Part shown: piece by piece, positions 7,901 through 59,610 of the stretch
Layout: each line of letters opens with the position of its first letter
Numbering within the stretch: position 1 is the stretch's first letter
Assembly: GCA_035236585.1 (NCBI GenBank)
Contig: CP141136.1
Location: 52,469,136-52,533,135, forward strand
Reading direction: 5' to 3'
Length of the DNA stretch: 64,000 nucleotides
DNA from: Warburgia ugandensis
Taxonomy: Eukaryota > Streptophyta > Magnoliopsida > Canellales > Canellaceae
Program-made: the position numbers and the translations under genes
The notes under the pieces: model-generated
The model's database searches: none
What the model was told of the DNA's origin: nothing
What the model saw: the letters and a program-made list of their open reading frames with translations, nothing else

Positions 7901-8259
7901 ATTGACGAAAAGATGAGTTTTGCTCTAGAAGAGCAACTTAAAAGTGCACACAATTCGGCTAGTTGGGTCCATCCTATGCAATTTGCTGTTAAGCAGCTGG
8001 GCTGGGGACGTTATGGCGGTCCAAGTCCGTCGTAACCTACTAGAAGACTCGTATTAGATGCGTGTGGTCTCCATAAGTAACGTCTGCCGCTTCCTGTTAC
8101 GCTTTAAATCTAAATCCGTACCTTCTTGAAAACCAACCTTTCTTGCCGCCGAGGAAATCTCCCGCGGGACACTAATACCGCAATTCCGCATGCTCTCTCT
8201 TCGTTCCAAAATCCCAGATCCTCAAACCCTAGAATTGTTAACCTCTCAGTTTCTCTGTA
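7901..8259 (+). promoter_or_regulatory. SF1 promoter-proximal region and 5' leader
   Basis: Base composition changes sharply here from AT-rich intergenic DNA to a GC-richer stretch, as expected near a plant transcription start. The leader ends in pyrimidine-rich blocks (CTCTCTCTTCG, CCTCTCAGTTTCTCTG) just before the start codon. It also holds a telo-box type AAACCCTAG at 8224-8232, a motif common in the 5' regions of plant genes for translation and RNA processing. No clear TATA box or transcription start can be assigned by eye. An intron in the leader is possible but not demonstrated. Confidence 0.55.
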
Positions 8260-10809
8260 ATGGAGGATTCTGCAATTTCCTCTACTCCTTGTCAGCAGCA
8301 TCTTCGACCATCCTACGAAACTCGAAACTCTAATCCGCCCTCTGAAGCCCCAGATCCTTACTTCACCAATCTTCAGCATCGACCGTACGGTCAAAACCCC
8401 TCCCCACTTCCCGAAAGTCTAGATTCTCAGAGCGCCCCTTCTCCTCCTCCTCCTCCTCCAGAAACCCTATATTGCCAAAATCCACCACCTCCTCCTGAAA
8501 CCCTAGATTACCAAAATCAAAATCATTCTCTAGATTTTGAAAATCGGGCTTCTGCAGGAACTTTTGTATCTTCCGCTCAGGTTTCTGATGCCCTAACTGT
8601 ACCTTCTGAATCCCTAGCTTCTTCTCAGAAGCCTCCAACGGAAAATGCTTCTTTGGATGGAAAAATTGCTGAAAACAACAATCAAACACCCACCACTTCC
8701 AAACCACTTTCAGAAAATGGTTTCAATCTCACTCACAGTGGAACGGATAAAGATTACTCCGGCGGAGAGGAGGAAACAACTAGCCGCAGAAGACGTCGCA
8801 GCCGGTGGGACCCTCCGTCGGAGTCCGATCAGGTGAATAGTGATGGGACTAGCGGGCGGAAAAGGAAATCTCGTTGGGCTGATGATGAACAGAAGCCGGT
8901 TATTCAGTTGCCTGATTTCATGAAGGAATTAACTGGAGGTATGGATTTAGATCCTGAAGTTCAAGCTCTTAATATTAGGCTTCTTGAAATTAGTCGAATG
9001 TTGCAATCTGGTTTGCCATTGGATGATCACCCGGAAGGTGCTCGTTCCCCTTCTCCCGAACCCATTTACGATAATATGGGAATTCGGATAAACACTAGAG
9101 AGTATCGTGCCCGTGAAAAATTTAACCGAGAGAGGCAGGAAATTATCTCTCAACTGATCAAACGGAACCCTGCATTCAAACCTCCACCCGACTATCGCCC
9201 ACCAAAGCTTCAGAAGAAGCTCTACATACCAATGAAGGAATACCCAGGTTACAATTTCATAGGTCTCATAATTGGGCCAAGGGGAAACACGCAGAAGAGA
9301 ATGGAAAAGGAGACTGGGGCAAAGATTGTGATTCGTGGCAAAGGGTCGGTAAAAGAAGGTAGATTGCAGCAGAAGCGTGACTTGAAACCTGATCCCTCTG
9401 AGAATGAGGATTTACATGTTTTGGTTGAGGCTGAAACACAGGAGGCGCTCGATGCTGCAGCTGGGATGGTAGAGAAGCTCTTAATGCCTGTTGATGAAGG
9501 GCTTAATGAACACAAGAGGCAGCAACTGAGGGAACTTGCTGCTTTGAATGGGACGATAAGAGATGACGAATTTTGTCGATTATGTGGTGAACCTGGCCAT
9601 CGTCAGTTTGCTTGTCCGGCACGTACCTCAACTTTTAAGAGTGATGTTCTTTGTAAAATTTGTGGAGATGGAGGGCATCCTACTATTGATTGCCCCATGA
9701 AAGGAACGGGCAAGAAAATGGATGATGAATATCAGAACTTCTTGGCTGAGTTAGGAGGAACTGCACCAGATTCTTTAACTAAGTCAAACCCAGCATTGCC
9801 AATTACTGGTTCAAATGGCTCAGGAAGCAATCCTCCTTGGGCAAGCAGTACTAGCTCTGGAAGTGTTGGAAGCACAACTCCAGCAGGTTTGACAAATGGT
9901 ATCAAGACTGGAAAGGAATATGATGATACAAATTTGTATATTGGGTATTTGCCTCCCAATCTTGATGATGATGGACTTATTCGGCTATTTTCATCTTTTG
10001 GTGATATTGTGATGGCTAAGGTCATTAAGGATCGGGTTACTGGGTTAAGTAAAGGGTATGGTTTTGTGAAGTATTCTGATGTCACTCAGGCAAATTCAGC
10101 TATTGCTCAAATGAATGGGTATCGATTAGAGGGGAGAGTTATAGCTGTAAGAGTTGCAGGCAAGCCACCTCAGCCTACTGTACCTCCTGGTCCACCTGCC
10201 CCAATGCCTACTTACCCTGGTTCAGTTCCATCTGTTGGTGGTTACCCATCCCAACAATTTACACATGGTGGGCCTCTTGCAAGTGCACCACCTGGAAGCT
10301 ATATGGGTGCACCAGCTCCATGGGGACCACCTGCACCTCCTCCATATGCTTCATACAACCCTCCACCTCCTGGTTCAAGTATGTACACCTCTCTCCAAGG
10401 TCAGTCTGTACCTCCTTATGGCTTCCAGTATCCCCCTCCGGTTCAGACTATGCCAGCTGGTGCTGCATCTCAAGGTATTCCTTCCAGTGAGGCACAGCTG
10501 AGTTCCCCGCCCGGAGTGCAATCTCAGAACAATTCATCTGCACAGTCTGTGCCTAGTAATGTCTATGGGAGTTCAGTACCTGGAATGGCACCAAATGTAC
10601 CACCAACATACCCTCCATCTTCCATTAGTTATCAATCTTATTACAGTGTGCCACCTCCTATACCGCATTCAACTGTAGATCATTCACAAAGCATTGTAAG
10701 TACACCATGGTTCGCAAATCTGCCAGCATCTCTGCCTGTTTCGTCTGCAGAACAAACTACCTATGCTACTGACTCAGAGTATGAGAAATTCATGGCGGAG
10801 ATGAAGTGA
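8260..10809 (+). CDS. SF1: Splicing factor SF1 / branchpoint-binding protein, plant type
   Basis: An 849-residue intronless frame. SF1/BBP binds the intron branchpoint in the nucleus during early spliceosome assembly, with U2AF65 as partner. Seen in the sequence: a Pro-rich N-terminus; two basic Ser-Arg-Trp motifs (RRRRRSRWD at 176-184 and RKRKSRW at 200-206) like the U2AF-ligand motif of animal SF1; an SPSP motif at 263-266, like the site phosphorylated in animal SF1; a KH domain at about 318-420 with the GPRG loop at 339-342; CCHC knuckles at 439-452 and 465-478 (both CX2CX4HX4C); an RRM at about 557-635 with RNP2 LYIGYL (559-564) and RNP1 KGYGFVKY (598-605); and a Pro/Gly/Ser/Tyr-rich tail to the stop. 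The RRM is the plant hallmark, since yeast and animal SF1 lack it. The length is close to that of known plant SF1. The start is the first ATG of the frame, has G at +4, and gives the full N-terminus. The frame shows no damage. Confidence 0.95.
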
Positions 10810-17041: not shown

Positions 17042-18267
17042 ATGATTGTGCTGTTGTTATTTCACGTTTCTGCTGTTTGTTGTTATTTTCTCCTGCATTC
17101 CTGGAAGTGCATTCCCTGTACCGATTAACTTCGTAGAGAATTTGATGTCGTATTCCTTGTATTGCGTGAGTCTAGGCCTTTATGATAGATGTGTAAAAGG
17201 GTCGTCCGTTGTTTCTTACCTAGTTTTGTTGCTAATGATCTATGAGTTCTCCAAATGAGATGTATTACCTTCTTGTCTAGTAGTGGTGGATTTCTCTCAT
17301 TAGTTATTTTACTTGATCTCATGCAAAAGAGTTCTTCGAATATTTTTATGGTGCAAGAATTAGTCTCAGTTGCATATGTTCTTCTTATTGAAAACCTCCT
17401 GATGGTTATTTTGCAATAAAGGCTTCTTTAAGCTGTGTGTGGCATGATCTTATGTTGCGTTATTTTCCTCCTGCTGTCTCCCATTGGGCTTGGGGGTGGT
17501 AAGCTTCAAGAACTCTTGGATATTTCTTGATTTTAATGGGTGCTTCAAAATAGAGGCTATGAAATCAAATATGGTAAGGTCCAAAAAAATTCAATGTAGC
17601 TTCTGGTGGGAGAGGTCCAATTGATTAGATCTTTTGTACACCCTAGTCATGAGAGGTCTTGAAGATAATGGTTTAGATAATTTGAATATGTAGTCACTGA
17701 AAAAAATACCCGTGCTGATATTTTTGCTTGAATGTGTCGTTGGGTGTAGAAGAGCCCATCATTTCTTCTTAATGGAGGGTGGTCGGTTCCAACTCCAATG
17801 TGGATCATTGGGATGTAGCAAGCAAATAATTTCATTTTCTCGTCTCCTTAACGTTGATGCGGACCTTGGAAGTTGCTATTTTCTGTTATACAAGTTCCAG
17901 TATCCTTCACGAAACAGACTCGACAGCTCCAACTGGGTAGCTACCTCCCATGAGCAAATCCTTGAACTGTGTTGATGTGACTTGATTAAATGCCAGCCAG
18001 TAGGTTGTACTCTTAGGTAAACTGGGATTAGGGGCGGCAAAATATGACACGACACGATAACACGACACGAACCCGACACGAATTTAGCGGGTTCGGGTTG
18101 AGTCTTATCGTGTTCGTGTCATTTTCGGGTTACCCAAAAATGACACGCCAAAAATCGTGTCGTGTTCGAGTCAATCAATTTGACCCGTCGTGTGGGCTAA
18201 TTTGTTTGACACGCGACCTATTTACTCATCACCTTGACATGATTCTAACCTATGGAATGGTTGAAAA

Positions 18268-18629
18268 TATAGGACGGTTCTTGAGGAACCGTCTTATATT
18301 ACTCATGTAATATAGGACGGTTCCTGAATAACCGTCCTATATTGCTAGTTATATAGGACGGTTCTTCAAGAACCGTCTATGTGAAGTTATATAGGACGGT
18401 TTTTCAAGAACCGTCCTATATTGCGGATTATATAGTGACGGTTCTAGAATAACCGTCCTATATTGCTAGTTATATAGGGCCGGTTCTTCAAGAACCGTCC
18501 TATATTGCAGTTATATAGGACGGTTCCAGAATAACGTCCTATATTGCTAGTTATATGGGGCGGTTCACGAAGAACCGGTCCCTATATTGCTTAGTTATAT
18601 GACGGTTCTTCAAGAACCATCCTATATTA
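18268..18629. repeat. Left subterminal hairpin array of hAT-1
   Basis: Nine short palindromes occur about 40 bp apart. Each reads like ATAGGACGGTTCTTCAAGAA followed by CCGTCCTATATT: one arm AGGACGGTTC and its complement, with 1-6 bases between. Spacers are mostly TGCTAGTTAT-like. Several units carry substitutions in one arm only, so the array is drifting. It is within the element, about 240 bp from the left end. Comparable subterminal repeats bind transposase in other hAT elements; that role here is inference. Confidence 0.9.
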
Positions 18630-18659
18630 CTAAAAATTAGACTAAATGCTAAAAATTAG

Positions 18660-19407
18660 CTAAAAATCATTAATACATAAAGATTCAAGCATGAGTAAGC
18701 TATATATGTGGATAAGAATAGGTATTAACTAATAAATATAAAAAATAACAAAATTTTCCTAATTTTCGTAACTTATTTTTTTTGAAAAATTAAAAAAAAC
18801 TAAATTACAAAAAAAAGAGATGAAAACATTATCACACATGAATACACAACATGGGAAAGCTTCTATATGTGGATAGAAATACTTTTCAATGAAGAAATAT
18901 GAAAAAACAACGACTTTTTTAAAATTTTATAGTGATTTTTCGAAAAAGCATGAGAAACCTAAAAACAAACTCAAATCTAGAGCAAAGAAATATAAAACTC
19001 AAATGGAATGCTTCTCATACACATAGAACTAAAACCCATCAAGATCTATGAAAAATAGTTAACGAAAAACAAAAAAAATAAATGCAGATTATAAAATTTG
19101 TAAATACATACCTTTTTTGCTTAAATCTATGAAAGATCGAAGAGGAATGGTCGTTTTCACCTTCTCAGACTAAAACCCATCAAGATCTATGGAAAATAGT
19201 TAACAAAAAACAAAAAAATTGAAAAAGTCTTGGCTTTTATGTTTTTTATAGAACTGTATACATATTGTAAAATTTGTAAATACATACCTTATTTTGCTTA
19301 GATCTGTGAAACATCGAAGAGGAATGGTCATTTTCACTTTCTCAGTAGTTTGGACTGGAAGATTGGAAATTTGAAATTAGGGTTGATCAAGGTGAAAAAT
19401 GATATAT
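18660..19407 (-). repeat. Shared internal module of hAT-1
   Basis: This block recurs in hAT-2 (54795-55585, same orientation) and in hAT-3 (61196-61790, opposite orientation). Read on the minus strand it starts with TTGATCAACCCTAATTTCAA and TGAGAAAGTGAAAATGACC, then runs GAGGAATGGTC-complement, TTTCACAGATCTAAGC and AAAATAAGGTATGTATTTAC. That resembles a plant 5' leader followed by a GTATGT intron donor. Part of it (about 140-170 bp, around ATCAAGATCTATGGAAAATA) is duplicated in tandem in hAT-1 and hAT-2. It is probably the remnant promoter, leader and first intron of an ancestral element gene or of a captured host gene. Confidence 0.65.
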
Positions 19408-19412
19408 AGAAC

Positions 19413-19570
19413 AATATAGGACGGTTTTTAAATAACCGTCCTATAATATATATAATGAAATATATGATGATTTTTTTATAACCGTCCTATAAATTATATA
19501 GGATGGTTATTTTATTTATTATAAAGTTATAAGACGGTTGTTAACATGTTGTTGCATAACCGTCATATAA
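19413..19570. repeat. Internal hairpins of hAT-1
   Basis: About three further copies of the AGGACGGTT / AACCGTCCT palindrome with longer loops, one with a loop of some 30 bases. They sit directly beside the shared module. hAT-2 has the same group at about 55600-55790, so this placement predates the split of the two copies. Confidence 0.8.
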
Positions 19571-21900
19571 ACTATAAGAGTTATGTATTTAATTAATCTT
19601 AGTTGAGGATGTATTTAGATAAAAATAATTATTAAGTATAGAGTAAAGAAAGAGTTATGTAATTAACTCATCTTAATTTTCTGAAGGATGAGCTTCAAAA
19701 GATAGAGCATATATGTAATTAACTCATCTCAATTGAGTATCAACTTAAAAACAAAGTTATGTAAATAACTCATACTGTCATACTCAATTCAATAGTTGTT
19801 GAGGTTGAGGATGAGTAAAGTAAGTGTTATGTATTTAACTCATCGATCTCGATTGAGGATCAACTTAAAAAAGCAAAGTTATGTAAGTAACTCATACTCA
19901 ATTCAAAAGTTGTTGAGATAAGTAAAGAAAGAGTCATGTAATTAACTCATTAGGTAAGAATGAGAATGAGAATAGAAACAATTATGTAATTAACTTAGTA
20001 GCTTGAGAGTTGAGAATGAGTATAGAAAGAGTTATGTAATTATCTCATTGGTGGATAATGAGTATAGGAAGGGTCCGAAGGGAATAGTTATTAGTTATGT
20101 AATTAACTCATTAGGTGAGGTAAGAATGAGATCGAGAGAATAGGAGTTATGTGTTGAATTAACACAAATGTTGAATGATATTACTAAGGGAGTTACTAAA
20201 TTTTACTCTACATGAATGATGGATCAATGGATTATGGATGAATGAGTTATTCCTAATATATTATCATCAATTGGGAGCTAGAAATGAGAAACAAATATTG
20301 ACTTATATGAGTTGGATACATGATATTCATGAATTTGATTAAAAAGAGATATATTAGATCAATTGGTGATGACATGTGAAATTAACATAAGAAAATAATT
20401 AGCATTTATAATTTTATACAATATTTGACAGTTAGTTAGTCTCTCACTTCACTTGTCCTTGTACAAGTTACAAAACTTGGTTAACTAATTTTGTACTAAG
20501 TGTGACTTGTAAGTTTGTAATTGATAATGTGTAACTAATCTTAAAATGTTTGATAAGAAAATTAGAGACAGTGTATAGATGTAGCTAAGTCTTAGGTTAT
20601 AACTTATAGTTATAGCAAACAACCGACCAGGGCAGGGGCTTTTGCTTAAGACTTCTAATTCAATTGGATAATTGGATTGAGCTTACTTACTTACATAAAA
20701 AGACAAAACAATTGCCTTGAGAATTGTATATAAAGAGTTATGTAATTATCTCATTGGTGGATAATGAGTATATGAAGGGAATAGTTATTAGCTATGTAAT
20801 TAATTCATTATTTGAGGTGAGAATGAGATCAGAGAATATGAGTTATGTATTGAATTAACATAAAAGCTTATCAAGAGAGAATTAGAAGGATATTGATATG
20901 ATAACTTTGGTGAAACTAAAATTAATTATGGATTGTGGCCTATACTCTATAGTGAAAATTGACAAGAAGTGGCATTGATGGTAAAATGAATAATAATTAT
21001 GAGAGAAAAAACACATGTTAAATGATATTACTAAGGGAGTTACTAAATTTTACACTGCATGAATGATGGATCATGGATGAATGAGTTATTCCTAATCTAT
21101 TATCATCAATTAGGAGTTAGAAAAGAGAAACAAATATTGAGTTATATAAGTTAGATACATGATATTCATGAATTTGATGAAAAAGAGATATATTAGATCA
21201 ATTGGTGATGACATGTGAAATTAACATAAGAAAATCATTAGTATTTATAAATTTATACAATATATGATAGTTAGTTAGTCTCTCACTTCACTTGTACTTG
21301 TACAAGTTACAAAACTTGGTTAACTAATTTTGTACTAAGTGTAACTTGTAAGTTTGTAACTGACAATGTGTAGCTAATCTTAAAATGTTTGATAAGAAAA
21401 TTAGAGACAGTGTGTACGTTAGCTAAGTCTTAGGTTATAACTTATAGTTATAGGCTTATAGCAAACAACCACCAGCTAGGCTAGGTGCTTTAGCTTAGCT
21501 TTAGCATAAGACTTCAAATTTAATTGGATAATTGGATATGGGAATTAGGCTTCTTACATACAAAAGACAAAACAATTGTCTTAGACTAGATTGACTTTGT
21601 AGACAGATAATTATTAATTAGTTAAACCTTTATGTTTCGGTTTTCATTTTGTTTCCTGCCACTACAAGGGGGGCCCACACGTCGGATCTAACATTAAGGA
21701 CTCAAAATATTTGACAAATGATTGAAGTGTAAGTTTCATTAACTCTAGTTGCCACTTGCCAGTTTGGAATTGGAGGAAAGAAAACTATATGTCCCTGTCA
21801 GGCAGGCCGGCGCCAAGGCTAGGCCGTTTGCCGACATAGGCAGACTGGTCACTGGAAGTCTGGCACATCACAGTCACGCTCATAGATTGGTAAAGTACTA
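19571..21900. repeat. AT-rich body of hAT-1 with GTTATGTAATTAACTCAT motifs and a large duplication
   Basis: The body repeats a motif close to AGTTATGTAATTAACTCAT about a dozen times at irregular 40-90-bp spacing. A larger tandem duplication is also present: the stretch at about 20030-20715 recurs at about 20730-21590. The first copy lacks roughly 150 bp (around AAAGCTTATCAAGAGAGAAT) that the second copy and hAT-2 both keep. hAT-2 has a single copy, so the duplication arose in hAT-1 or its close ancestor. No coding frame was found. Confidence 0.75.
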
Positions 21901-21924
21901 ATAAACCATATCCATATGTGTAAA

Positions 21925-22340
21925 AATAGGACGGTTAGTCGTTAACCGTCATATAAAACATAGCATATAGGACGGTTATGACATAACCGTCCTATAAAAC
22001 ATGACATATAGGACGGTTATTTCACAACCGTCCTATAAAACCCATAACATATAGGACGGTTCTGATTTAACCGTCCTATAAAACATAGCATATAGGACGG
22101 TTATTTCACAACCGTCCTATAAAACCCATAACATATAGGACGTTACTGATATAACCGTCCCTATAAAAACATAACATATAGGACGGTTATTTCACAACCG
22201 TCCTATAAAACTCATAACATATGGGACGGTTACGATATAACCGTCCTATAAAAGTTAAAACATAACATATAGGACGGTTATTTCACAACCGTCCTATAAA
22301 ACCCATAACATATAGGACGGTTCTGATTTAACCGTCCTAT
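21925..22340. repeat. Right subterminal hairpin array of hAT-1
   Basis: Ten palindromes occur about 36-40 bp apart, of the form ATAGGACGGTTATTTCACAA followed by CCGTCCTATAAAAC. Five-base to eight-base loops alternate between a TATTTCAC type and a TCTGATTT or TACGATAT type, which gives a higher-order repeat of about 75 bp and points to recent expansion by pairs. The spacer (AAACCCATAACAT) differs from that of the left array. Confidence 0.9.
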
Positions 22341-24983
22341 GTTTTGTGGTTGGTTTGGCTCCATTCACTTGGGAGCAGTTTTTTTACTAAGTCGTAATAG
22401 GAAAATCGAGTCGTTTCATATCGTGCCGTATATCCAACACAACTCAGTCAATTAATCGTGTTACACAGGTCGTGTCGTGTTATTTTTTTAAGAATCGGGT
22501 CGTGTACGAGTCATAGGTTTTTGACACGACTATTAATCGTGCCGTGTTCGTGTTGACCCATAACTCTAATCGTGTCGTGTTCGTGTCGCCACAAACACGA
22601 CCCGCCAACCCGAATTGCCACCCCTAACTGGGATTGGGATTAGACTAGGCCAGGTTGATGTATGATCCCATCTGTGTAATGCTTTTTGTGTTCAGCCTCA
22701 GCTGAAGGGCATCTAAAAGCACTATAAGCTATTTCCTTGGCAGGCTATGATCATGGTCCCCGAGTGGGCAAGTAAATTAGCAAGTGCAATTGTATTAACT
22801 GCAGGTTGCTTATCTTGACCTAGGGTGCTGCAGAATTGGTTGGAACACGCCTCAGACAACTCCCTTCAGATAGTGTCTAGGCTGGGCATGTATTTTCTCT
22901 GCTGTTGGGGAGTCGTCTACTTACGTAGTCTACTCTTGTTAGCCGCTGACTGAAAGGCGGTAAGACGCTGCCGGTGATCCTTTTTGAGTATTTGTGATGA
23001 CTTTTTTCCAATGTATTTGTCTTAACGTGGGAGGCTGGTCAATGCCTCAAGCCTCCAAGATGATGCTTGGGGCTACATGACGAGGTCGTCTACTACCCTG
23101 CATCAGCTGTCACAATGCGTTGTCTAGATGGTTTAGTATGATCCTTTTAGTACTAACTTGGGAAAATCAACTTGTGCTGCTGTTGCCGAGAATCCATTGC
23201 AACCATGTACAGGTCCCATGTGGTAGTGAAATAACGTGCCTTTGAACTGACTTTTTGGCCATCCAACTGGGAAGAATCTTGTTCTCGAGTCTGTTATCTT
23301 CTTGATTTTTCTTTGTCCACCCTACTGGGGAGAGTCCTGATCTCGAGGCAATAATCTTCTAGTACTATGTTTAGAAAGCGGGAGGAAAATATCTAACTTG
23401 ACTCCATTAGAATGTTTATTTTTTTGCCAGTATCTATCACCATGGCCTAGTTTGCAGGGTTCTTCTAGATTTCATGGAAGTATTTTCATAGACAATCACA
23501 ACAGATAGCTGTTATCTGGGGTTCATTTTGGTGGAGGACGTAGCACTGTCCTGGTTTGGTGCTTCCACCGTCTTTGAAATACCGAAGAGATTGATTAAGA
23601 TCAGTGAAACTAGAGGAAACTCAGAATCGTCAACATGCCCATGTATCTTTCCATGGATGTTCAGATATGACTAATATTAGCAGGTGGTGCGGGTGGCTAT
23701 TTTCGGCCGAGTTGTTGTCCGTCGAGTTGGGTTAAAGTCGGACTCTGTCAGAAGCATTGGTTTCGATTTATTTACAGATTACACCGTCGGTTCTATATTA
23801 AATTAGTATATTTGGGCCAAGTGTGGTGCTGTCTCATGATAGTCATTTTCATGTGTGGCATGATGTATTTGCACTTTATCATGGAGCGACTCGGCGGACA
23901 CTTGTTATCGTGCTGTACCCTGGTTTCCTAAATCTTGGCTTGTGCATTGCTTGGTAGGATTTAGTTAATGGCTTAGACAATGATTTACTTGTGTTAAAGT
24001 TTCTATTTACAAAATTTGACAGATTTCCGATAATTTGTTGAGCCAAGAAACATTTGAGCTCTTACGTACTTGCGGTGCTTGGTTATATGTAGGTCAACCA
24101 ACTATAGAATACAGTTGATATATTACAGATTAGATCCATTTTCTGTAGGTAGTTGATGGGAGATTCTAGTTGCTAGAATCCTTAGAAGGGTAAACTCTCG
24201 TATAGGCTGTTAATGGGCGGGATACCGATTGCATCGACTCGTGTCATGGCCATGCTCCATGTAATTATGTCTGAGTCCTATTTGGATAATCCTCTAGATG
24301 TTAATTTTGATGTGTTGATAGATATTATTTTGGATTCGAATTATCTTGGATCTAATTATAAGATTAAACTATTCACTATAATTATTACAGATATATGAGC
24401 AGCTTTTGATTTGAAATATTAATGCAAATATGTTTTAAGCATGTTTTTACACATGAACTAGATTTATTCTAAATGATCATATAAAATTTAAATATATTTA
24501 CTAAATGGGAATGTTAAAGATTTTTTAAGGATTTTATATTTAGGTAAGGGTGTTTAGAGGCGTAGTAGAAGAAAATTAAAAAGATCTTTGTTTAGTCCCT
24601 ATAGAATGCTGTCAAAAAAATCTGCGGTAATGATAATTAAACATAGGTGCTTTAAACAGAAAATCAGACTGTACTATCCAATGGGCATTATAAAATTGTC
24701 TTGGTCCAGTCCACTCAATTTTTAAATCCTGAAAATAGAGTCCCATTATAATACATCAGTTTAAATGTCTTTGATCTGTCTATTCAAATTTTAGATCCTG
24801 AAAATGGAACCCAAATATAATACATCAGGTTTTTTATATGCTTATGTCCCGTCTAATTCTCTTTGTACGGTGATCGTTCATTGAATGTTACTTTCTCTCT
24901 CTCCCTCTTATCTCCAGCGGGTATCTTTTGCAAACATAACTGTTAGTGGGCTAATGCTTGTGAATCAAGCAATACCCAATATC

Positions 24984-48462: not shown

Positions 48463-50019
48463 CTATAAATCTAAATAACACTGGATATTATAGATATGAA
48501 CGTAGGATTAGAATGCTTGAAGTAAAAGAGGCCTTGAGAAAGATGAAATCAGGAAAGGCCATGGGGCCTGATGGTATACCAATAGAGGTTTGGTAGCATA
48601 TGGGAGATATTGGGGTAGTTTGGTTGACCAAGTTGTTTAACAAGATTATAAAATCAAAGAAAATGCCTGATGAGTGGAGGAAAAGCTCTATTGTACCAAT
48701 CTATAAGAATAAAGGAGACATTTAGAACTGCACTAATTATCGAGGGATCAAACTTAGGAGCCACACCATGAAACTTTTTGAAAGAATGATTGAGAAGAGG
48801 CTACGACATGAAACAAGTGTATCAGAGAATCAGTTTGGTTTCATGCCTGGGAGGTCTACCATGGAAGCTATTTTCTTACTAAGACAATTAGTAGAGAAAT
48901 ATAGGGAGAGGAGAAAAGACCTACACATGGTCTTTATTGACTTAGAGAAAGCTTATGATAGAGTCCCTAGAGAGTTAATATGGAGGGTGTTGGGTGTTAA
49001 AGGGGTTTCTCAGGGGTATATAGACATAATTAAAGATATGTATGAGGGAGCAAGAATAAATGTTAAGACCACTAGTGGCGTGGTGGTGATTTTTACATCC
49101 TTTGTCGGATTGCACTAAGGATCGGCATTGAGTCCATACCTTTTCACATTAGTTATGGATGAGTTAACAAAACATTTGCATGAGGAGATTCCCTGGTGCA
49201 TGCTATTTGCAGACGATATAGTCCTACTTGATGAGATAAGGGAGGGTGTCAACATAAAGCTAGAGCTATGGAGAGAAGCATTAGAATCAAAAGGATTTAA
49301 AATTAGCCAAACTAAGACAAAATATATGGAATGTAATTTTAACAAGGAGAGTAGGAGTGGAGCACAAGTCAAGATTGATAACCAAGAGGTCCCCATGAGA
49401 GACCACTTCCGATACTTAGGATCATTGATCCATGAGAGTGGAGAGATTGAGAGGGAGGTTACCCAGAGAATCCAAGCAGGTTGGAACAAATGGAGATGTG
49501 CATCGGGTGTTTTATGTGATCGGCGGGTGCCGCTCAAACTAAAGGAAAAATTCTATAGGATGGCTATAAGGCCGGCCATGCTCTATGGATCAGAGTGTTG
49601 GGCAGTTAAGGAACATCATACTCATAGGCTGAGTGTTGCAGAAATGAGGATGTTGAGATGGATGAGTGGTAAGACAAGAAAGGATAGAATTAGAAATGAA
49701 AATATTAGAAGAAATTTAGGGATAGCACCAATAGGTAACAAGATGAGGGAGATTAGACTTAGATTGTTTGGACATGTTCAAAGGAGGCCAACAACGGCAC
49801 CAGTTAGAAGGAGTGAGGCAATACAAGTTGAAGGTTCTAAAAGGGCAAGGGGAAGGGGAAGGCCTAAAAGAACGTGGATAGAAGTGGTGAGGAAAGATTT
49901 AAAAACTTTGGGACTAAATGAAGCCATGGTATGTAATAGAGTGGAATGGAGGAATAAGATTCATGTGGCTGACCCCTAATTGGGATAAGGTCTTGATAAT
50001 GATGATGATGATGATGATG
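48463..50019 (+). mobile_element. LINE-2: 5'-truncated RTE LINE in copia G
   Basis: It starts abruptly at CTATAAATCTAAATAACACT, a point inside the pol region of LINE-1, and runs to the 3' end. Reverse transcriptase blocks are readable in 48768-49118 (MKLFERMIEKRL, FMPGRST, FIDLEKAYDRVP) and 49128-49979 (SPYLFTLVMDEL, MLFADDIVLLDE with the catalytic ADD), then the C-terminal part ending HVADP. One in-frame stop lies between these two frames at about 49117-49119. The tail is TGATAATGATGATG repeats at 49994-50019. It is much better preserved than LINE-1 and is the younger copy. Confidence 0.9.
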
Positions 50020-52866: not shown

Positions 52867-54605
52867 GCCTTGCTCACCAGAAAAGCTAGACCACGCCGAA
52901 GAACAGAGGGAACTGGGGGCTTTTGTATTACTAAGAGAAATAGAGTTCACCGGCGACAACAATAGCTCAGATCTCTAATTCGGCCATCCACCTCACTCTA
53001 CACAAAGGGAGGAGAAAAACCCCTTTGGTTCCACCGTGATTAGAGGAGGGACAATGTTGGATCAAAGAAAATTGCATGCGCAGGAACAGTCACTGAAAAA
53101 ATCCATGAATCACCCCTTCTCTGGCGACGATTAGAGACTACAAACATGTCATAAAGGTAAGATCTCTACATGATCTTCTTGTTTTCCCTTCAAACTGGAG
53201 GAATACTAGTGAATCTAGGGATTTAACTAATTCACCATAAAACAGGGTCAAACAATCGATCTCGTCCATGTTTAATGGACAGAGATCGAAAGGAACTCTG
53301 ATCATCTTGTTTGAGTTCTGATCATCCATCTTGAACTGGGACTAAAATGATCCGACCCGTAGTTTGTGTTAGATTTCAAATGTTTGAACTGAAAGTTTAC
53401 AAATTTTGTAATCGTTGATGATCTAAGATTGATTAGAGCTTCGATCATTTGGTTGCAATTTTGATCAGCCATCCGATCTTTGAAATTCATATTGATTGGA
53501 ATTAACAATCCACATCAATGAGTAAATTGCAGGGGAATTCTTGATCTAGTGTTGGGAATTTATCAATTAGACTTGAATTGAATGAGAAACATGCTCTAAT
53601 AGAAAACAAATCAGACTATCTTGACCATCTGATCAGTTACTACTAGGATTCAGATAAGACAATGATTGATCAATGATCAGACATTGTCATTGCCTTCTTT
53701 GACCCTTGAATTGTTTGAAAATTAAAGAAAAGTTCAAATTAGAATATTAATCTAGTAGACATGAACAACTAAAATGAAGTTGATGGCTAGATCGCAATCA
53801 TATGCAGAAAAATTAACAATCTGGTATGGTTATATGGAATTAAATAGAATTTGATCATCAAATTTAGATTAGAATTGTTATTTAAAGGATATTATGATAG
53901 TTTATGTAATTTAAGGAGATCTGACTGTTGAATCATTGATATGGATAATAAGTTAAGATCTAATAATAATCTAACCATATCTCCGTGTTTGACCTAGGAA
54001 CAGTAATCGTAAAACATCATATTAGGAGAATTTGGCCATTAGATGATGAATTGAATAAGCGATTAACTATTAACCAATGATAAATTGTAAATCTAATAGT
54101 TTTATGTCTTTGAGATGACTTGAATTGTTAAATCACAACGTAAGCGTTGGATGACCTAGAAGTGTATAATTAGACCAAGTAAACCTTTATATCATTGATG
54201 ACTAATGGCTGGTTGGACCTTGAATTACTTCATTTGAGTTCTGATCACTGACTAGAAAAGAAAAACAAACAAATTGACGGACTAGAACATGATTCATTGG
54301 CTAACAAGATTCGATGATTAGAGAAATCAACATCCAACAAGTTTTAACAGGGGGATCATTGGTCTAGAGTAGGGGCGGCAAAATATGACATGACACGATA
54401 ACACGACTCGAACTCAACACGAATTTAGCGGGTTCAGGTTGAGTCTTATTGTGTTCGTGTCATTTTCGGGTGACCCCTAAAATGACACGCCAAAAATCGT
54501 GTCGTGTTCGAGTCAATCAATTTGACCCATCGTGTCGACTTGTTTGACACGCGACCTATTTACTCATCACCTTGATACGATTCTAACCTATGGAATGGTT
54601 GAAAC

Positions 54606-54790
54606 TATAGGACGGTTCCTCAAGAATTGTCTTATATTACTCATGTAATATAGGATGGTTCCTGAAGAACCGTCCTATATTTCAAGAACCGTCCTCTATT
54701 GCTAGTTATATAGGATGGTTCTTTATGAACCGTCCTATATTACTCAAGTTATGTAGGACGGTTCCTGAAGAACCGTCAAACCGTCCTATA
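54606..54790. repeat. Left hairpin array of hAT-2
   Basis: About four to five AGGACGGTTCCTCAAGAA-type palindromes, some with one arm decayed (GGATGGTT, AATTGTC). It is shorter than the nine-unit array of hAT-1, showing that array length changes between copies. Confidence 0.85.
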
Positions 54791-57700
54791 TGACTAAAAA
54801 ATAGATTAAATGCTAAAAATCATTAATACATGAAGATTCAAGCATGAATAAGCTATATATGTGGATAAGAATAGGTATTAACTAATAAATATAAAAAAGA
54901 ACATTTTTTTTCCTAATTTTCGTAACTTATTCTTTTAGATAATTAAAAAATAACACTAAATTACAAAAGAAGAAGAAGAAGAAGATGATGAAAACATTAT
55001 CACACATGAATACACAACATGGGAAAGCTCTATATGTAGATAGAAATACGTTCAATGAAGAAATACAAAAAAACAACGACTTTTTTTTTTTTTTTTTTAA
55101 CTGATTTTTTCAGAATAACAGTAAAAAACTTAAAAACAAACTCAAATCTAGAGCAAAGAAGTATAAAACTCAAATGGAATGTTTCTTATACACAGAACTA
55201 AAACCCATCAAGATCTATGGAAAATAGTTAACAAAAAACAAAAAAATTGAAAAAAATATAGATTGTAAAATTCATAAATACATACCTTTTTTTGCTTAGA
55301 TCTATGAAAGATTGAAGAGGAATGGTCGTTTTCACCTTCTCAGACTAAAACCCATCAAGATCTATGGAAAATAGTTAACAAAAAACAAAAAATTAAAAAA
55401 AAAAGGTACTGGTTTTTACGTTTTTTTATAGAACTATATACAGATTGTAAAATTCGTAAATACATACCTTATTTTGCTTAGATCTGTGAAAGATTGAAGA
55501 AGAATGGTCGTTTTCACCTTCTCAGTAGTTTGGACTGTTGGAAGATTGAAAATTTGAAATTAGGGCTGATCAAGGTGAAAAACGATATATAGAACAATAT
55601 AACTGTCCTATAATATATATAACAATATAGGAAGGTTTTTAAATAACCATCCTATAATATATATATATATATAATGAAATATAGGACGGTTTTTTTATAA
55701 TCGTCCTATAAGTTATATAGGACGGTTATTTTATTTATTAGAAAGGTATAGGACGGTTGTTGACATGTTGTTGCATAACCGTCGTATAAGCTGTAAAAGT
55801 TATGTATTTAATTAATCTTAGTTGAGGATGTGCTTAAATAAAAATAATTATTAAGTATAGAGTAAAGAAAGAGTTATGTAATTAACTCATCTTAATTTTC
55901 TTAAGGATGAGCTTAAAAAGACAGGGCATATATGTAATTAACTCATCTCAGTTGAGGATGACTGGATGAGTAAAGAAAGAGTTATTAATTAATCTTAGTT
56001 GAGGATGTGCTTAAAAAAAAAAAAAAAGTTATTAAGTATAGACTAAAGAAAGAGTTATGTAATTAACTCGTCTTAATTTCCTTAAGGATGAGCTTAAAAT
56101 GACAGAGCATATATGTAATTAACTCATTTCAGTTGAGTATCAGCTTAAAAACAAAGTTATGTAAGTAACTCATACTGTCATACTCAATTCAATAGTTGTT
56201 GAGGTTGATGATGAGTAAAGTAAGTGTTATGTATTCAACTCATCTGATCTCAGTTGAGGATCAGCTTAAAACAGCAAAGTTATGTAAGTAACTCATGCTT
56301 AATTCAAAAGTTGTAGAGGATAAGTAAAGAAAGAGTCATGTAATTAACTCATTAGGTAAGAATGACTGAATGAGAATAGAAACAGTTATGTAATTAACTC
56401 AGTAGCTTGAGAGTTGAGAATGAGTATAGAAAGAGTTATGTAATTATCTCATTAGTGGATAATAAGTATAGGAAGGGTCCAAAGGGAATAGCTATTAGTT
56501 ATGTAATTAACTCATTAGGTGAGGTGAGAATGAGAACAAAGAATAGGAGTTATGTGTTGAATTAACACAAAAGCTTATCAAGAGAGAATTAGAGAGATAT
56601 TGATATGATAACTTTGGTGAAACTAGAATTAATTATGGATTGTGGTCTATACTCTATAGTGAAAAAAGTGGCATTGATGGTAAAATGAATAATAATCATG
56701 AGAGAAAAAAAAAACACAAATGTTAAATGATATTACTAAGGGAGTTACTTAATTTTACTCTACATGGATCAATGGATCATGGATAAATGAGTTATTCCCA
56801 ATCTATTATCATCAATTGGGAGTTAGAAATGAGAAACGAGTATTAAGTTATATGAGTTGGATACATGATAGTTATGAATTTGATGAAAAAGAGATATATT
56901 AGATCAACTGGTAATGACATGTGAAATTAACATAAGAAAATCATTAGCATTTATAATTTTATACAATATATGACAATTAGTTAGTCTCTCACTTCTACTT
57001 GTACAAGTTACAAAACTTGGTTAACTAATTTTCTACTAAGTGTAATTTGTACGTTTGTAACTGACAATGTGTAGCTAATTTTAAAATGGTTGATAAGAAA
57101 ATTAAAGACAGTGTGTAGGTGTAGGTAAGTCTTAGGTTATAAGTTATAACTTATATGTATAACAAACAACCGGCCCAGCAGGGACTTTAGCATAATAAGA
57201 CTTCAAATTCAATTGGATAATTGGATTTGGGCTTACTTACATATAAAAAGACAAAACAATTGCCTTAGACTAGATTGACTTAGTAGACTTAGATAATTAT
57301 TAATTAGTTAAACCTTTATTTTTTCAATTTTCATTTTGTTTTCCCACCACTACAAGGGGGGCCCACCATTGAATCTAACATCAAGGACTCAAAATATTTG
57401 ACAAATGATTAAAGTGTAAGTTTCATTAACTCCAGTTGCCACGTGCCAGTTTGGAATTGGAGGAAAGGGGGCTATCTGTCCCTGTCATGCAGGCCGGCGC
57501 ATAGGCTAGGCCATTTGCCGGCATAGGCAGACTAGTCACTGGAAGTCTGACACTTCATAACCATCCTATATAGTTTAGTTAATTACAGGATGGTTATGAA
57601 GTAACCGTCCTATATAGTTCAATAAACTATAGGACGATTAGTTTATAACTGTCCTATAATTTAACTATATAGGACGGTTACATCATAATTGTCCTATATA

Positions 57701-57869
57701 GTTGACATAATACACTAATGGATAAAGGCATAAGTGGGGCTAGGCTTTGGTGATCAAAACCATTCATGTGCAAGACCATGACTAGGAAATCTTATCTGTT
57801 GACTGATGCTAGCCTTTTGCAATTCTAAGTTTTAAATGGAAAGCTGAAAACTTTTGAACAGAACTTAAC

Positions 57870-57912
<43 letters not shown>

Positions 57913-58187
57913 ATTAATCTACGAAAAAGGCAATGGGATGCCACAACATGGTCACTTAATTCGTTGCTTCTATTCCTCATTTATTTGGTCTTTACGTTAC
58001 ATTAATTGTTTGGAGCAGCACCGTATTGTCTTGATCCACATGGTGGGAAATGCGAACATGTACGTAGCAATGTTCATTGAAGACTTAAGGCTGGGCCCCC
58101 CTTTTACACCGCATAAGATGGAGTTACATTAAACTAGAAAAGCCCAGACCAGCAATGCGAGGGAGTCGATCCCTTGTAGGACATGGA
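57701..58187. other. Segment unique to hAT-2
   Basis: This 0.49 kb lies within the right hairpin zone and has no counterpart in hAT-1. It includes a GA tract (57872-57909) and an open frame of 64 codons (57938-58132) with no recognised family. The hairpin array stops at its left edge and resumes at its right edge. It may be an insertion of another element or captured host DNA. No flanking duplication was obvious. Confidence 0.6.
57872..57909. repeat. (GA)n microsatellite in the hAT-2 unique segment
   Basis: A GA tract of about 38 bp, bounded by TTAACGT and TAAATTAATC. It falls in the part of hAT-2 that hAT-1 lacks. Confidence 0.95.
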
Positions 58188-59264
58188 TATAGGACGGTTA
58201 CATCATAACCGTCCTATATAGTAAACATATAGGACGGTTATGATATAACCATCATACGTTTTGTGGCTGGGTTCGTTCCGTTCACTTGGGAGCAGTTTTT
58301 CACTAAGTCGTGATAGAAAATAGAGTTGTTTCATGTCGTGTCATGTATCCAACACGACTCAGTCAATTAATCGTGTTACACAGGTCGTGTCGTGTCATTT
58401 TTTTAAGAACTGGGTCATGTACGAGTCATAGGTTTTTGACACGACTATTAATCGTGTCGTGTTGGTGTCGACCCATAACTCTAATCGTGTCGTGTTTGTG
58501 TCGCTACAAACACGACCCGCCAACCCGAATTGCCACTCCTAGTCTAGAGGGTGAATATTAGATTATAAGGGTGATTTGAGCCTTATGAAATGATATTTAA
58601 CATTAAGCAAACAGAGTTTAAATGTGAGAACTAAAAGGAATACAAGTTTTATATTGATTGGCTATTTAGATGCTACTCGATACAAAATGAGGAGATTGAT
58701 TCAAGATAAGTTGTCATTTGAGCTAAGTCGACACAATTGAAATTGAAGGACATCGTAAGAGGTAGGTAATCTGATACTACCAAGTTTTAAATGAACTTCA
58801 AAATGAGAAAATAGTTTGTGGACTATTTCTGGTTCAGAATAGTTTGGTTATCATATCAATTATTTGATACATATGTATGTTATTTGAGCTTATATGATTT
58901 TCATGTAGATTCATGATTTATCATGTGTTCCTTATTTGACATTATTATAATATGAGGCGTGTAAATTGATTTATGATTCTAAGTTCATATTCCATACCTA
59001 ATTTTGAAAGAACAATGTTCAAAGTATTCAAAGATTATGATTTGTATATGCATGATTTCCATACTTTGAAAGGAACGTTGAAGATGCATGGTTTTGCATA
59101 GGGTGTGCATGTCATGTGATACGATTTTGAGATGTATGAATATGAATACAAACTAATTTAACTATTGAGCCATACTTTGAAATGAATATTTGAGATACAT
59201 GGTTTTACATAAAGTATACACACTATCTTATATGATTTAAGGTGTATGATGTTAATCTTTTGGT

Positions 59265-59610
59265 GGTGATTGCCCATTGGTTAGTCCATGTGCATGTGTT
59301 GCAAAGGGACCATTGTTTAGTTTCCTTACATGTGTTGCAAAGGGACCATTGTTTAGTTCGCTTACATGTGTTGCAGTGAGACCATTGGTTAGTCTACCTA
59401 CATGTGTTGCAAAGGGACAATTGGTCATGTTTTGCAAATGGACCATTTGTTAGTTTGCCTGCATGTGCTGCCAAGGGACATTTGGCTGAGTTCGCCTATC
59501 TATGTGCACAAAAGACTATTGGTTAATCACCTTGCATAAGTGCAAAACGACTTAGTAATTTGCCCAATATGGTTCATCTACCTGACATGTGTTGTCAAAA
59601 GACATTTTGT
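59265..59610 (+). repeat. About 36-bp minisatellite in element E
   Basis: Roughly eight to nine units based on CCATTGGTTAGTCTACCT plus ACATGTGTTGCAAAGGGA. Central units are well conserved and the outer ones increasingly diverged, as in arrays that expand from the middle. The minus-strand frame reads as a repeated peptide and is an artefact. Confidence 0.88.

Follow-up and report, generated by a model that had tools for sequence, protein, structure and literature searches.

Arrays of inverted half-site pairs in a hAT family of Warburgia ugandensis, candidate sites for an element-encoded protein

Do palindromes packed near both ends of a transposable element act as hairpins, or as sites for a protein? 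The question is raised by element A, a non-autonomous hAT copy of 4598 bp residing at 18029-22626 of a 64,000-nucleotide stretch of the Warburgia ugandensis genome (contig CP141136.1, positions 52,469,136 to 52,533,135; hereafter the window, whose coordinates are used throughout). A is bounded by 12-bp matching ends, TAGGGGCGGCAA...TTGCCACCCCTA, and by the 8-bp target duplication ACTGGGAT (18021-18028 and 22627-22634). Both are exact, as an earlier note, drawn up by inspection of the window, had reported. The same note had counted nine palindromes at the left, ten at the right and about three inside, and identical figures (9, 10 and 3) were returned by an edit-distance search of the window for AGGACGGTT-N7-AACCGTCCT, with up to 5 edits allowed. 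The 22 units, made of AGGACGGTT and AACCGTCCT separated by 7 nt, are called here dyads rather than hairpins, because paired protein half-sites call for just such loops, variable in sequence and near-fixed in length.

The left array of A (9 units, 18271-18623) begins 243 bp from the end. Three units lie inside the element (19418-19566), the third being imperfect, with 5 edits and a poor left arm, and ten form the right array (21928-22338). Units succeed each other at steps of 38-48 bp, mostly 40-43, close to four helical turns by arithmetic at 10.5 bp per turn. The two-unit higher-order repeat previously noticed in the right array is evident, as Tandem Repeats Finder assigns it a period of 84 bp at 86%, against one of 43 bp at 77%. 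In this array ATTTCAC loops and CTGATTT loops, or relatives of these, follow one another in alternation, and loops and linkers at the left end are unlike those at the right end. A motif-free search for non-overlapping stems (at least 9 bp, with at least 3 G/C) identified 17 in A, 4 of which are formed by sequence other than the dyad, whereas 30 dinucleotide shuffles gave a mean of 0.87 and a maximum of 3. AGGACGGTT, with at most 1 mismatch, occurs at 65 window sites, against 7.0 expected from shuffling. All but three reside in A (37) or in a second copy of the family (25), element B, which the earlier account, correct as to A, had missed. The remaining 55,230 bp of the window host 4 dyad matches, every one at 5 edits.

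Element B (4172 bp, 54370-58541) is defined by its ends, by its alignment to A and by the exact target duplication GTCTAGAG (54362-54369 and 58542-58549). It carries 12 dyads: four, along with stray half-sites, in the left array (54609-54787), three inside (55629-55785, the third imperfect), and five in a right array split into an inner part of three units (57587-57695) and an outer part of two (58191-58255). About 495 bp free of dyads separate the two parts, and the units flanking this interval have the identical loop ACATCAT. Motif-free stems in B are 9, against a shuffle mean of 0.93. A and B are 93.9 and 91.6% identical at the ends, 90.1% in the AT-rich spacer, 90.0% in the block of the internal hairpins and 89.1% in the block left of the right array. 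In contrast, identity is only 80.3% in the left-array block, with 187 gap columns, and only 55.4% in the right-array block, with 348. As array blocks are more diverged, and unit numbers differ (9 versus 4 at the left, 10 versus 5 at the right), arrays turn over faster than other parts of the element.

What is maintained within the arrays was monitored by comparing consensus sequences, using the 25 of 34 units of exactly 25 nt (in A 5 of 9 at the left, 2 of 3 inside and 9 of 10 at the right; in B 2 of 4, 2 of 3 and 5 of 5). The consensus of the left and right arrays of A agree at 18/18 core positions and at 7/8 near-flank positions, but only at 4/15 positions of loop and far flanks (Fisher 7e-6), in line with the earlier statement that loops and spacers differ between the two ends. 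Core and loop plus far flanks agree at 17/18 and 5/15 positions when the left and right arrays of B are compared (4.5e-4), at 18/18 and 8/15 for the right arrays of A and B (0.0015), and at 17/18 and 6/15 for the left and internal dyads of A. Half-sites were also counted in 15 elements, namely A, B and 13 genome loci, in one of which (L007) tips are missing and bounds were set by eye. Of 182 steps from a plus to the next minus half-site, 171 measure 16 bp, and the 7-nt loops are of 86 distinct sequences; minus to plus steps, by contrast, range from 20 to 50 bp, mostly 25-27. Loops are not wholly random, each position holding 0.04-0.54 bits. The 15 elements contain 446 half-sites; 100,222 bp of sequence flanking 13 of them contain 14, approximately the chance frequency given by the shuffle rate of the AGGACGGTT count at up to 1 mismatch. 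Throughout the host genome (1.12 Gb, 14 contigs), perfect dyads with a 7-nt loop are 4,307, those with loops of 6 and 8 nt 46 and 67, and reversed-pattern controls 0 at each of the three lengths. Many of the listed dyads with an 8-nt loop have one common loop, and therefore look like a single inherited change. Searches of viral and prokaryotic DNA collections with the dyad pattern gave 0 matches.

The distribution of the family was analyzed at 13 dyad loci, namely all those formed by the matches listed first, which fall within the initial 8.9 Mb of contig 1. Both tips are present in twelve of these elements; the thirteenth, L007, lacks tips but has both terminal sequences. Elements at the sampled loci vary in size from 501 bp to 16,641 bp, and in the 12 two-ended ones every dyad of the fetched stretch (up to 3 substitutions) falls between the ends. 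Four further dyad loci (contigs 3, 6, 8 and 9), picked from the list of 8-nt loops and not at random, all adjoin family ends, and one is a complete element with the duplication CTAGAAAG. A 35-base end pattern has 473 exact matches in the genome. Twenty were sampled from the exact ends listed on contigs 1-3, by end alone and regardless of dyads: one or more dyads are present within 1 kb of 17 of them, and one or more half-sites in the case of 19, where the first half-site is reached 184-258 bp from the end.

The family is a hAT family, as A had been classified before. The 12-bp TAGGGGYGGCAA stands at both ends, followed by two different end sequences, which are shared by all 15 elements and in A make up the outer terminal regions 18029-18262 (plus strand, type TAGGGGYGGCAAAATATGACACG) and 22351-22626 (minus strand, type TAGGGGTGGCAATTCGGGTTGGCGGGTCGTGT). 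The 8-bp target duplications, exact in A and B, are exact at 10 of the 13 loci as well; one locus has 1 mismatch, another 2, and L007 no recognisable tips. Neither A nor B revealed hAT transposase domains when frames were inspected and peptides matched, and a Pfam scan of six short frames of A detected no transposase; the longest stop-free frame of A, in a terminal region, is of 92 aa. Genes are present in five large copies, 12.9-16.6 kb long, which are built alike. After one end and a first array comes the transposase gene, on the minus strand; two arrays separate it from a second gene, on the plus strand, which is followed by a last array and the other end. The third array of the 16.6-kb copy is reduced to single dyads. 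The transposase of the 13,195-bp copy contains a hAT RNase-H domain (PF14372, 4e-27, over a 454-codon open frame), a BED zinc finger (PF02892, 5e-5) and a hAT dimerisation domain (PF05699, 1e-22), the latter two identified in hand-assembled pieces, of which the BED piece holds one stop, entered as X. The same transposase matches Hermes structures (4e-5). Peptide matches to the RNase-H segment were obtained in all five large copies, to the BED and dimerisation segments in three each. Relative to the most diverged copy, the ratio of nonsynonymous to synonymous substitution rates (dN/dS) of the transposase is 0.32-0.48; among the four closer copies it is 0.45-1.03, and stops are present in the compared segments of several large copies.

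The second gene is recognizable as three peptide segments, found in constant order and strand in all five large copies. In the 13.2-kb copy, with exons joined by eye, it matches PF03004, Transposase_24 (E 1.7e-11), whereas its unjoined single frames match no Pfam entry. A Ulp1/C48 protease domain was scored at a non-significant E of 0.17 on one frame, and not at all on the eye-joined segment. Compared with the most diverged copy, dN/dS is 0.86-2.5 in the first segment, 0.18-0.39 and 0.38-0.75 in the two others, on few changes. These ratios point to an older constraint on the transposase, with little recently, and to mixed signs for the second gene. Transposase_24 is used in the literature as a mark of CACTA-type tnpA genes; yet its detection in one large copy, on eye-joined exons, is insufficient alone to place the family among CACTA (En/Spm) elements, a membership rejected because the ends are TAGGGGYGGCAA with 8-bp duplications, not CACTA termini with a 3-bp duplication. 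A CACTA element nested in A was similarly rejected, since CACTACAA or its complement occurs as one interior string each in A and B, with no opposite partner. No plant hAT element with such arrays, or with a Transposase_24 gene in addition, was found among the papers listed in a literature search whose coverage left most subscription papers outside. The density of palindromes, described as unusual in the earlier note, is thus so for hAT elements in the literature found, but similar stem-loop arrays are described in a soybean CACTA element (available part of PMC2613891). Their occurrence in a hAT element seems to be a new variant.

With arms and spacing conserved, loops variable and no compensatory change at stem pairs (see below), paired protein half-sites are favored over cruciforms or RNA. 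We give about an even chance to the hypothesis that dyads are two-fold symmetric sites for a multimeric protein supplied by the large copies, the first candidate being the N-terminal BED zinc finger of the hAT transposase. Two inverted half-sites (approximately TATAGGACGGTT), with 9-bp cores starting 16 bp apart, would be offered about every 42 bp, or about every four helical turns, to an element-encoded protein binding with two subunits per dyad, and cooperatively along the array. Arrays may in this way enrich the transposase close to either end and also, in large copies, between transposase gene and second gene. A CpG is part of the half-site, so that binding may be methylation-dependent. 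CpG dinucleotides per kb are 104-150 in half-sites and in ACACGA sites, and 8-41 in the remaining parts of the elements, a difference which follows from the presence of a CpG, by definition, in both motifs. The earlier note had suggested multiple transposase sites: multiple protein sites are indeed the best reading, while the identity of the binder, its cooperativity and its role in transposition are features that we infer.

Known hAT elements provide partial precedents. According to the accessible portion of the Hermes study (PMC10368747), subterminal repeats arranged as a quasi-palindromic pair are bound cooperatively by BED domains, and the element requires about 220 bp at each terminus. 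The family described here resembles Hermes in having inverted half-sites near the end, a BED zinc finger and a hAT transposase. However, in the same portion Hermes has a single STR1-STR2 pair, close to its left tip, and both ends carry AAG(T/C) motifs, in contrast to the long arrays that begin here mostly 175-392 bp inside. In the excerpts consulted of a study on maize Ac/Ds (PMC3260210), the Ac transposase binds cooperatively to subterminal AAACGG repeats within the terminal 200 bp. Shared with Ac/Ds are 8-bp duplications, short terminal repeats, repeated subterminal sites holding a CpG, and many non-autonomous derivatives. Differences are the inverted near-fixed pair, the 42-bp tandem array, and the location of dyads, which mostly lie more than 200 bp from the tips and occur between genes as well; AAACGG itself is found once in A and is absent from B.

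Several observations weigh against this hypothesis. Most arrays start 175-392 bp from an end, one at 566, and the available text of the Hermes study doubts a role for inner repeats (PMC10368747). The true subterminal site may rather be ACACGA, or TCGTGT in complement, which lies outside dyads: 38 of its 45 window copies are within the outer 200 bp of the four ends of A and B, and each outer terminal region of A contains 10 (at the plus-strand end, 10 in 234 bp). Dyads are also located between the genes of the large copies, where end recognition gives no explanation for them, and the Transposase_24 protein may be the binder in place of the transposase. Comparison of the internal dyads of A with its right array does not separate core from loop and far flanks (17/18 and 10/15, p 0.07). 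Neighboring half-sites no more than 60 bp apart are in the same orientation in 56 pairs of the 15 elements, and many dyads have therefore lost a partner. Three of the 20 sampled ends lack a full dyad within 1 kb, and one of the three lacks any half-site. Finally, tandem duplication alone accounts for part of the regularity of the arrays.

The alternative that best survives assigns the dyads to the second protein, TnpA-like and of the Transposase_24 type, acting in a CACTA-type two-protein, anti-silencing or autoregulatory system. From the sequences at hand we consider it possible, though rather unlikely. It would account for arrays placed at both ends and between two divergent genes, and draws on the PF03004 match and on the presence of the second gene in every large copy. 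PF03004 was used to pick tnpA in lettuce, and TnpA is described as the subterminal-repeat binder of CACTA elements in the part of that study available to us (PMC8195511). The soybean CACTA element Tgmt* (20.5 kb), as far as it is described in the section seen of PMC2613891, has inverted-motif arrays near its ends, capable of forming 12 + 2 stem-loops, and a presumed subterminal-repeat-binding protein. It differs in having CACTA ends and a 3-bp duplication, where the family analyzed here has hAT ends, 8-bp duplications and a hAT transposase. Against the involvement of the second protein stand the failure of unjoined frames to match Pfam, the lack of constraint on the first segment (the range of 0.18-0.75 in the other two resting on few changes), and the absence of a TNP2 domain from the large-copy frames scanned with Pfam. 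Moreover, plant elements commonly contain captured sequences, and the second gene may therefore be a passenger. Partial text on the grapevine hAT element Hatvine-6 (PMC2528002) reports such extra, captured sequence; in that text captures are variable, whereas here one second gene resides in all five large copies, and dyad arrays are unmentioned in its section on transduplication. An anti-silencing role brings to mind VANC, the target motif of which builds up in tandem copies and brings about a loss of methylation (seen portion of PMC5735166). No fixed inverted pair is described in that portion for the motif of VANDAL21, a different element, and general Pfam scans of large-copy frames, none aimed at VANC, turned up no VANC-type domain; of a system in which an element-encoded protein binds a motif array and removes methylation, the array anatomy and the CpG of the half-site were observed here. 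The two proteins may also share the work: the hAT transposase would cut the TAGGGG ends, and the TnpA-like protein of the same element would bind the dyads, thousands in number, spaced by 16 bp and bearing CpG, which lie both at the ends and between genes, and would thereby gather ends, regulate its own genes or lift silencing, with array length tuning the response of each copy. This scheme is offered tentatively, and we rate it as a doubtful one-in-several prospect.

Less credit is due to the proposal that the structure itself matters and drives transposition or silencing, as DNA cruciforms or as hairpin RNA giving small RNAs, both of which the earlier note had considered. Nine dyads folded as RNA do form stable hairpins (-16.8 to -19.3 kcal/mol, z from -5.6 to -8.7), but such stability must be expected of any such palindrome. 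Covariation was assessed in 24 units, the 25 of exactly 25 nt minus that at 18557, which has 4 edits. Compensatory change was seen at 0 of 13 stem pairs, in a test of low power; selection on RNA or cruciforms was rejected on this ground. Over all 15 tested pairs, pairing is 85.4%, against 85.1% with shuffled partners, and cells with a double change are 6, against 5.8. The 6 cells fall in the two loop-edge pairs tested, both of which have some two-sided changes. Complementarity at the outermost loop pair is present in 0.49 of the 86 distinct loops, where composition predicts 0.34, and at the next two pairs in 0.42 versus 0.37 and 0.31 versus 0.37; the half-site may accordingly extend one base further, given the complementarity at the first loop pair. 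Arm departures from the consensus are concentrated at CpG columns (10/96 cells, against 11/336 elsewhere), the pattern of CpG decay. Many of the best or longest motif-free stems pair a half-site with the adjacent unit, and the near-fixed length of 7 nt, retained by otherwise variable loops, is not a requirement of hairpins. A structural role is hence improbable.

Similarly improbable, in our opinion, is the notion that dyads are a functionless byproduct, namely a palindrome-prone sequence expanded in tandem through slippage or unequal exchange. Two-unit higher-order repeats fit such a process, as do four large copies which are 93.9-96.0% identical over long alignments and yet have 9, 9, 6 and 8 units in the third array. 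However, expansion alone does not explain why the core is kept between the arrays of A while loops and far flanks agree at 4/15 consensus positions, why spacing is maintained genome-wide, and why arrays recur in comparable positions in elements that differ widely in size, a 501-bp derivative retaining one dyad. Last, an independent satellite is dismissed in the sample made of the first part of contig 1 and the four chosen loci, since dyad loci carry family ends (13/13 and 4/4) and most ends carry dyads (17/20), so that the arrays belong to the element, as earlier claimed.

The family is a natural data set, in which 4,307 perfect sites combine variable loops with near-fixed spacing, and unit number varies among copies 93.9-96.0% identical. 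It lends itself to asking in what way subterminal repeats serve transposases, by which protein they are bound, and at which speed arrays turn over. Should a TnpA-like protein prove to be the binder, a superfamily other than CACTA would be shown able to carry the two-protein logic of those elements.

Additional repeats were found within the elements. An interior palindrome family, GAGTTATGTAATTAACTC, overlooked in the earlier note, counts 12 copies in A (19578-20806) and 11 in B (55871-56513), with up to 3 substitutions, and 0 in the rest of the window; all five large genome copies have it too, with 7-10 copies apiece. A contains a 300-bp internal duplication (20227-20526 and 21066-21365, 94% identical, offset 839 bp), the counterpart of which in B is listed a single time (56772-57071), and B has a duplication of its own, of 181 bp (55808-56137). 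At one genome locus, L018, a family end stands alone at 2017-2216, with ACACGA repeats, about 700 bp before a complete 13.3-kb element, with no dyads between. Elsewhere in the window, an 855-aa open frame (8242-10809) encodes a splicing factor 1 homologue with SF1-HH, KH and RRM domains. Reverse transcriptase sequence at 48726-49979, in at least 2 frames (RVT_1, 1.6e-11 on 49119-49976), belongs to what we take, from its motifs, to be an element of the LINE (long interspersed nuclear element) type. A tandem repeat of about 36 bp, with the consensus CCATTGGTTAGTCCACTACATGTGTTGCAAAGGGA, spans 59274-59546.

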